Assembly (NCBI GenBank): GCA_001784555.1
Contig: MFRM01000003.1
Span: forward strand, 47,124 to 111,123
Source of the DNA: Candidatus Melainabacteria bacterium RIFCSPHIGHO2_02_FULL_34_12
GTDB lineage: Bacteria; Cyanobacteriota; Vampirovibrionia; 2-02-FULL-35-15
DNA: 64,000 nt
Direction: 5' to 3'
In this document: positions 23,576 to 24,508 of the stretch, piece by piece
Position numbering within the stretch: position 1 is the first letter of the stretch
Layout: each line of letters starts with the position of its first letter
Notes under the pieces: model-generated
What the model saw: the letters and a program-made list of their open reading frames with translations, nothing else
What the model was told of the DNA's origin: nothing
The model's database searches: none
Position numbers and translations under genes: made by a program

Positions 23576-24508
23576 ATGACAGGGGAAAATTCAAAAAAAA
23601 GTTTAATCTGGGTTTATCCACCAAATAAATGGATTTCGAATTGCAATAAGACATTTGTTTACGGGTGGACAAAACCAGGATGTAGGTTATATGCAGTCTG
23701 TAAAGGCAAAATTAAAAAGATAAAAGTATTTCCAAATGGAAACTTTGCACAAAAAATAAAACTACCACAGAAAAAAAATATTGTTCAGTTAGTTCAGGTG
23801 TTAAACGGAAAAGAAAAAACAATAACAAGATGTGTCATTGCGAGGGAGCAAAGCGACCGAAGCAATCCCGATCGATTTTCGCGAGGTAGATCGGGATTGC
23901 TTCGTCGGCACTTTGTGCCTCCTCGCAATGACATGGTCATCGTCATCGATCCCGGTCATGGTGGCAAAGAACATGGTACACACTCACCAAAGGGTGTTCC
24001 TGAAAAAGTTTATAATTTACAAATTGCAAAAAACCTCGTACAGGCATTGCACACAACACCCCAACAATGGAAAATTTACCTCACTCGTTCTACGGATAAA
24101 TTTGTCTCTTTAAAAGATCGTGTCCGTTTTGCAAAAAATAAAAAATGTAATTTATTAATCTCAATTCACCACAATGCACTTCCAGACAATGAAGATCCAC
24201 TTAAGCATAGAGGAGTCGGGATTTATTACACACATGATTTTGTAAAACCACTTGGAAAATCACTACTAGAAAGTATTTCAAAATCTGTAAGGGCACGCCA
24301 TGGCACGCCCTTACAAAAATACGGTTTGTATAAAAGAGATTTCGCACTTACAAAACCTGACTTTTGTCATGCAGTGTTAATTGAATGTGGATTTTTAATT
24401 CATCCGGTAGAAGGAGAAATTATTACACAAAAAAATACACAGAAAAAAATTGTAACCGGTGTAAAAAAAGCCTTATTTACTTTTTACCGTCGACAACCAC
24501 TTAAGTGA
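23576..24508 (+). CDS. N-acetylmuramoyl-L-alanine amidase (Amidase_3) carrying two in-frame repeat inserts
   Basis: VIVIDPGHGGKEHGTHSPKGVPEK, LLISIHHNALPDN, VLIECGFLIHPVE. Confidence 0.92.
   Translation: MTGENSKKSLIWVYPPNKWISNCNKTFVYGWTKPGCRLYAVCKGKIKKIKVFPNGNFAQKIKLPQKKNIVQLVQVLNGKEKTITRCVIAREQSDRSNPDRFSRGRSGLLRRHFVPPRNDMVIVIDPGHGGKEHGTHSPKGVPEKVYNLQIAKNLVQALHTTPQQWKIYLTRSTDKFVSLKDRVRFAKNKKCNLLISIHHNALPDNEDPLKHRGVGIYYTHDFVKPLGKSLLESISKSVRARHGTPLQKYGLYKRDFALTKPDFCHAVLIECGFLIHPVEGEIITQKNTQKKIVTGVKKALFTFYRRQPLK
23834..23932. repeat. Long palindromic element inserted in frame in the amidase gene (99 bp)
   Basis: GTCATTGCGAGG…CCTCGCAATGAC; encodes VIAREQSDRSNPDRFSRGRSGLLRRHFVPPRND. Confidence 0.95.
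24286..24315. repeat. 30-bp perfect short palindrome in the amidase gene, in frame (VRARHGTPLQ)
   Basis: tgtaagggcacgccatggcacgcccttaca. Confidence 0.97.

Follow-up and report, generated by a model that had tools for sequence, protein, structure and literature searches.

The 99-nt palindrome at positions 23834-23932 in the gene of an N-acetylmuramoyl-L-alanine amidase (Amidase_3) is one copy of a repeat that is carried by about a dozen conserved genes of this Melainabacterial genome, well beyond the single site described in the earlier note. In our reading, to which we assign a probability of roughly 0.8, it is a dispersed, non-autonomous palindrome which persists in genes solely where it is neutral to the reading frame and tolerated by a loop or linker. 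Coordinates refer to the window, i.e. the whole stretch of 64,000 nucleotides that was analysed. The position and the exact length given earlier agree with the sequence, which forms a near-perfect palindrome. As read from the sequence of the plus strand, it consists of a left half-unit of ~36 nt (23834-23869, GTCATTGCGAGG...GAAGCAATCCC), a central spacer separating both half-units (23870-23892), and an inverted right half-unit of ~40 nt (23893-23932), which reads GTCATTGCGAGGAGGCAC...GAAGCAATCCC on the minus strand. Folding the 99-nt strand as RNA gave -60 kcal/mol, compared to a mean of -29.6 for shuffled sequences (z = -8.0). Allowing for at most one mismatch, the 12-mer arm occurs 12 times in the window, whereas 0.10 occurrences are expected. 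Searches of the window against Rfam and for tRNA and tmRNA genes gave no match.

The genome (2.11 Mb, 26 contigs) contains 82 exact GTCATTGCGAG sites and none of the reversed control pattern; a BLAST search with the 99-mer gave 56 matches at E ≤ 0.01. A profile search of a 424-kb sample, which consists of the stretches around copies and is thus biased with respect to densities, detected 55 element loci; the sample holds 48 end-to-end copies with lengths of 52-189 nt. In a typical copy, two half-units lie inverted to each other around a spacer, and most copies have both arms. Half-units are mostly 26-42 nt long and follow the scheme GTCATTGCGAG-variable hairpin-GAAGCAATC or a similar one; the outer ends of the element are GTCATTGCGAG/CTCGCAATGAC, flanked mostly by T at the left and A at the right. 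No consistent target-site duplication was seen among the 48 copies: the 2-nt flanks match in 9 of them versus 3 expected under equal base use, the flanks being AT-rich. A stricter pattern, which demands both ends with 30-59 nt between them, was present in 13 of the 98 related genomes searched; 8 of these 13 are among the 11 members of the source genome's family, and another is a more distant genome with 16 copies. In G049, a member of the same class, sixteen similar GTCATTGC palindromes with a different spacer were observed (e.g. C1:107253-107330), which suggests that they expanded recently in a different family of this class.

Several copies in the window lie outside of genes or at their borders. 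No long ORF spans the copy at 16019-16120, and only a short, unsupported one spans that at 28433-28543; a partial element (one half) is located just 3' of mnmA (33899-33946), and a further 99-nt copy (38044-38142) is not wholly within an ORF. The copy at 45448-45573, at the end of an ORF, belongs to a subtype with an AT-rich spacer, which also comprises L070, L071, L075, L078:10335, L081:3990, L085-L088, and L096. This subtype is often preceded by AAAATT, and none of its sampled copies was seen to lie entirely within a long ORF.

Fourteen of the 48 end-to-end copies lie wholly in long ORFs, and 13 of these are well placed in conserved genes supported by Pfam, i.e. in frame inside many unrelated proteins. 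The hosts are the amidase, MnmA, a PAD-family/agmatine deiminase, an MtnA-like (IF-2B) protein, a class-I amidotransferase, a TrmA-like protein, MetH, a radical-SAM protein, a ThiL-like AIRS protein, QueA, a TrpE-like protein, RsmG (GidB), a CoA-transferase, and PurL, whose copy is near the N-terminus and may precede the true start. Two further copies, in the ferrochelatase and acetyl-CoA synthetase genes, are degraded or partial. Chance ORFs running across the copies were considered as well and were ruled out by the Pfam matches and the orthologues. In the window, the second host is mnmA (tRNA 2-thiouridylase; 32705-33895, plus strand), which contains in frame a copy of 99 nt (IIARRHEVPTKQS...TPRSD; 33611-33709, plus strand). 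Copy length is divisible by three in 12 of the 14 in-ORF copies versus 11 of the 34 others (Fisher p = 0.0009, or p = 0.002 if the doubtful purL copy is moved out of the in-ORF set); note that an open frame was the criterion for calling a copy in-ORF, so that the bias partly reflects this choice and the statistic describes survivors, not an insertion preference. Survivorship would produce such a bias in frame and length, because a copy whose length is not a multiple of three or whose frame bears a stop would break the gene. The coding frame begins with VIA(R/S) or a close variant in 12 of the 14 in-ORF copies, ten of which also end with RND or RSD. In alignments to solved structures (MnmA, QueA, PAD, MtnA), the inserts coincide with gaps or with the joints between domains. 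The orthologues of QueA and RsmG, in 8 sister genomes each, lack the element, their loops at this site being variable and mostly shorter; extra length at the element site is clear for these two proteins, as it is for MnmA in comparison with most of its orthologues.

The amidase ORF (23576-24508, plus strand) encodes 310 residues with an N-terminal beta-domain and an Amidase_3 match at residues 122-300 (E = 7.6e-38). As the earlier note had stated, the frame stays open across the element, which is translated as residues 87-119; its Arg-rich peptide, VIAREQSDRSNPDRFSRGRSGLLRRHFVPPRND, directly precedes M-VIVIDPGHGG. An AlphaFold run with 4 sequences (mean pLDDT 73) modelled a beta-domain at residues 12-89 and, at residues 121-305, an amidase fold which matches the structures 4rn7, 1jwq, and 5emi. 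Residues 92-116 are below a pLDDT of 50, and the stretch encoded by the element is predicted to be disordered; the model thereby bears out the proposed position in a linker at the domain boundary. With its first codons (V-I-A), the element prolongs the final strand of the N-terminal domain. Five active-site positions (His/Glu) were checked and are invariant in 11 orthologues, in line with membership in Amidase_3. For orthologues from 11 genomes, dN is ~0.2-0.37 on both sides of the insert, with dS, which is near saturation in this comparison, being ~1 or saturated. Both the N-terminal and the catalytic domain are thus under purifying selection, and with dN well below dS and invariant active-site positions there is no support for a pseudogene, the first of two objections raised in the earlier note. 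A second, different palindrome (GTAAGGGCACGCCATGGCACGCCCTTAC; 24287-24314), identified by means of the sequence and the orthologue alignment, adds ~6 residues (SVRARHGTPLQ) to the same protein, which are absent from the other aligned orthologues.

The alignment with related amidases showed conserved N-terminal and catalytic domains and a linker which differs in every genome. Palindromes of the GTCATTGC type are found in the linkers of three of ten sister orthologues (G007, G003, G001) and likewise in G000; the linker of G006 contains a GTAGGGGC palindrome, those of G009 and G010 contain other palindromes, each with a GTCATT remnant, and that of G004 contains CTCAATCC-type repeats, whereas no recognised element was detected in the alignment for G008 and G002. 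Between genera the linker peptides are unrelated, being K/Q-rich, made of tandem repeats, or derived from other palindromes. The linker is a shared hot spot, in that repeats occupy it in most sister genera. Since the total length of the linker is alike in most orthologues, the element takes up the linker without plainly lengthening it. The word "inserted", as used before, therefore holds only in part: the element is present in frame, but the linker is barely longer (~3 residues) than that of the element-free orthologue G008/L006.

The loop of MnmA offers a second comparison. It carries the element in G000 and a copy of the family (HVIARSKATKPRQRRAKQS...LLAMT) in G006, i.e. in one of the ten sister genomes; in G001 it consists of a tandem repeat, and most other sister loops are short. 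Several of them read VETLHATSL, VETRLIAS, or similar, and may be encoded by GTAGAGAC-type palindromes. These data bear on the question of whether the amidase element stems from an old insertion that was passed on in the family and not from repeated insertion into the same linker, an explanation which is compatible with the main mechanism and which we take seriously without favouring it. A four-gene tree splits G000 and G003 from the remaining genomes with full support, and both have GTCATTGC palindromes at the same position; the GTCATT remnants in the linkers of G009 and G010 point in the same direction. However, a palindromic copy is present in G007 but not in G004, G008, G002, and G005, and genomes without a copy lie between G000 and G006, the two that have one in MnmA. 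As the inner branches of the tree are weak, the amidase element may have been either inherited or repeatedly inserted. More speculatively, several palindrome families might keep colonising the same permissive loops of the same proteins in parallel, the ends of the element having evolved to be compatible with translation (stop-free VIA...RND, which can extend a beta-strand); we put this forward tentatively, as a proposal of low probability.

It is improbable that the linker has been domesticated and serves the amidase, for example by tethering it to the wall or membrane through its arginines, with selection preserving the peptide. The richness in arginine and the long linker found here in most orthologues would fit; however, linker peptides that are unrelated between genera indicate that length may matter and not sequence, and the same type of peptide occurs in unrelated enzymes. 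We infer that the protein tolerates the insert and does not benefit from it, the peptide probably having no function beyond that of a tolerated linker. Less probable still is a start of translation at the in-frame ATG directly after the palindrome (23933), the other objection raised earlier, which would turn the element into a hairpin of the 5' leader and leave the N-terminal part separate from the amidase domain: this ATG is neither preceded by a Shine-Dalgarno-like sequence nor conserved in the orthologues, it would orphan an N-terminal domain that is conserved and under purifying selection across 11 genomes, and in most other genes with an in-ORF copy, starting after the element would remove part of a conserved domain. 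The full-length protein, composed of N-terminal domain, insert, and amidase domain, is presumably made.

Most likely, the element is a selfish palindrome of the REP/RPE-like kind, composed of two inverted ~35-nt units. According to the mechanism we propose, such dimers of REP-like hairpin units, which are non-autonomous, would have spread through the Melainabacterial genome, and most copies entering genes would presumably have been lost due to frameshifts, stops, or broken folds. The survivors would be those with a length divisible by three and a stop-free VIA(R/S)...RND frame that are placed in linkers or surface loops; the disordered linker between the two domains of the amidase would be one such case, supplied by the element.

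A second palindrome family in the window (GTAGGGGC.../GTAGAGAC...) begins with GTAG and is separate from the 99-nt element. Its copies, at 11496-11527, 36083-36112, 42996-43022, 50782-50811, 56838-56867, 61346-61373, and other sites, are in many cases translated inside genes: in the sample, 16 of 25 recognised palindromes of this type lie within ORFs of at least 120 codons, the hosts including MiaB-like, D-Tyr-tRNA deacylase, and UvrC genes. Two side observations concern similar sequences. At 20513-20537, the palindrome TTGAGGTCGCAAATTGCGACCTCAA is part of a small ORF (LRSQIATSK) resembling an ORF6N-type protein, and the VVGVRHGMPLLKQ stretch of a Sua5/YrdC-like protein (33958-34491) looks like a further GTAG-type palindrome that is translated. 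REP-associated tyrosine transposases (RAYTs) are presumed to mobilise GTAG REPs (PMC3733652). Directly upstream of mnmA, a RAYT-like gene of the Y1 transposase type (32112-32708, plus strand) has a GTAG palindrome of its own at 32442-32470 (CRGGVTPPLQ); another RAYT-like gene is located on contig C12, and both score below the NCBIfam cutoff. The 99-nt element may move by means of a trans-acting enzyme, for which a RAYT/IS200-like protein is a candidate.

Among the known systems, the closest parallel in function are the Rickettsia palindromic elements (RPEs), palindromes translated in frame in many conserved Rickettsia genes (Ogata 2000, 2002, summarised in PMC10969869, PMC2229807). Like them, the amidase element is a palindrome with a stable hairpin and close to their size (~100-150 nt), and its family occurs in unrelated conserved genes with a compatible length and frame and with one preferred peptide frame. 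In contrast, the host belongs to the Melainabacteria from groundwater, i.e. to another phylum, and the element consists of two inverted GTCATTGC half-units; by this comparison, it seems to work like RPEs and to constitute a separate family. The CGTC-tagged REPs, which include RPE-4 and RPE-6 (PMC3733652), are likewise short hairpin units, often inverted dimers, some of them inside ORFs, and have no dedicated transposase. The half-units described above have this architecture; however, T and not C precedes GTC in most Melainabacterial arms (70 versus 9 of the 82 exact arms). A plasmid search with the 99-mer gave no match; with a hand-made 72-nt consensus, half-units were detected in Methylosinus, Methylocystis, and Halomonas, with weaker matches in Aulosira and Novosphingobium. 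The half-units on Methylosinus and Methylocystis plasmids are near-identical and preceded by C, i.e. they have the CGTC tag. The GTAG REP/RAYT system (PMC3733652) is matched by the GTAG tag, the location in ORFs, and the RAYT-like genes, but these proteins are below cutoff and the GTAG family is distinct from the 99-nt element. In-frame MITEs (Coxiella QMITE, Neisseria, Yersinia; PMC5896051, PMC2229807) are likewise small elements with inverted repeats that have become in-frame parts of genes, most of them, however, with target-site duplications, which are not evident here. Intragenic GTAG and CGTC REPs were listed for several other bacteria in 2013 (PMC3733652), and a review from 2024 regards a similar process in other prokaryotes as only conceivable (PMC10969869). 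In open-licence papers we found no description of the element in Melainabacteria, and the papers retrieved with the arm sequence were all unrelated.

In-frame coding palindromes, best known from Rickettsia, are now encountered in a groundwater Melainabacterial lineage, and annotators should be aware that repeats in this genome often lie within real genes. With orthologous sites that are filled or empty among ten sister genomes, the lineage provides a clean comparative system for studying where proteins accept new peptides and whether their evolution is fed by selfish DNA. If several families do colonise the same loops in parallel with ends compatible with translation, mobile DNA would keep supplying proteins with linkers and loops.
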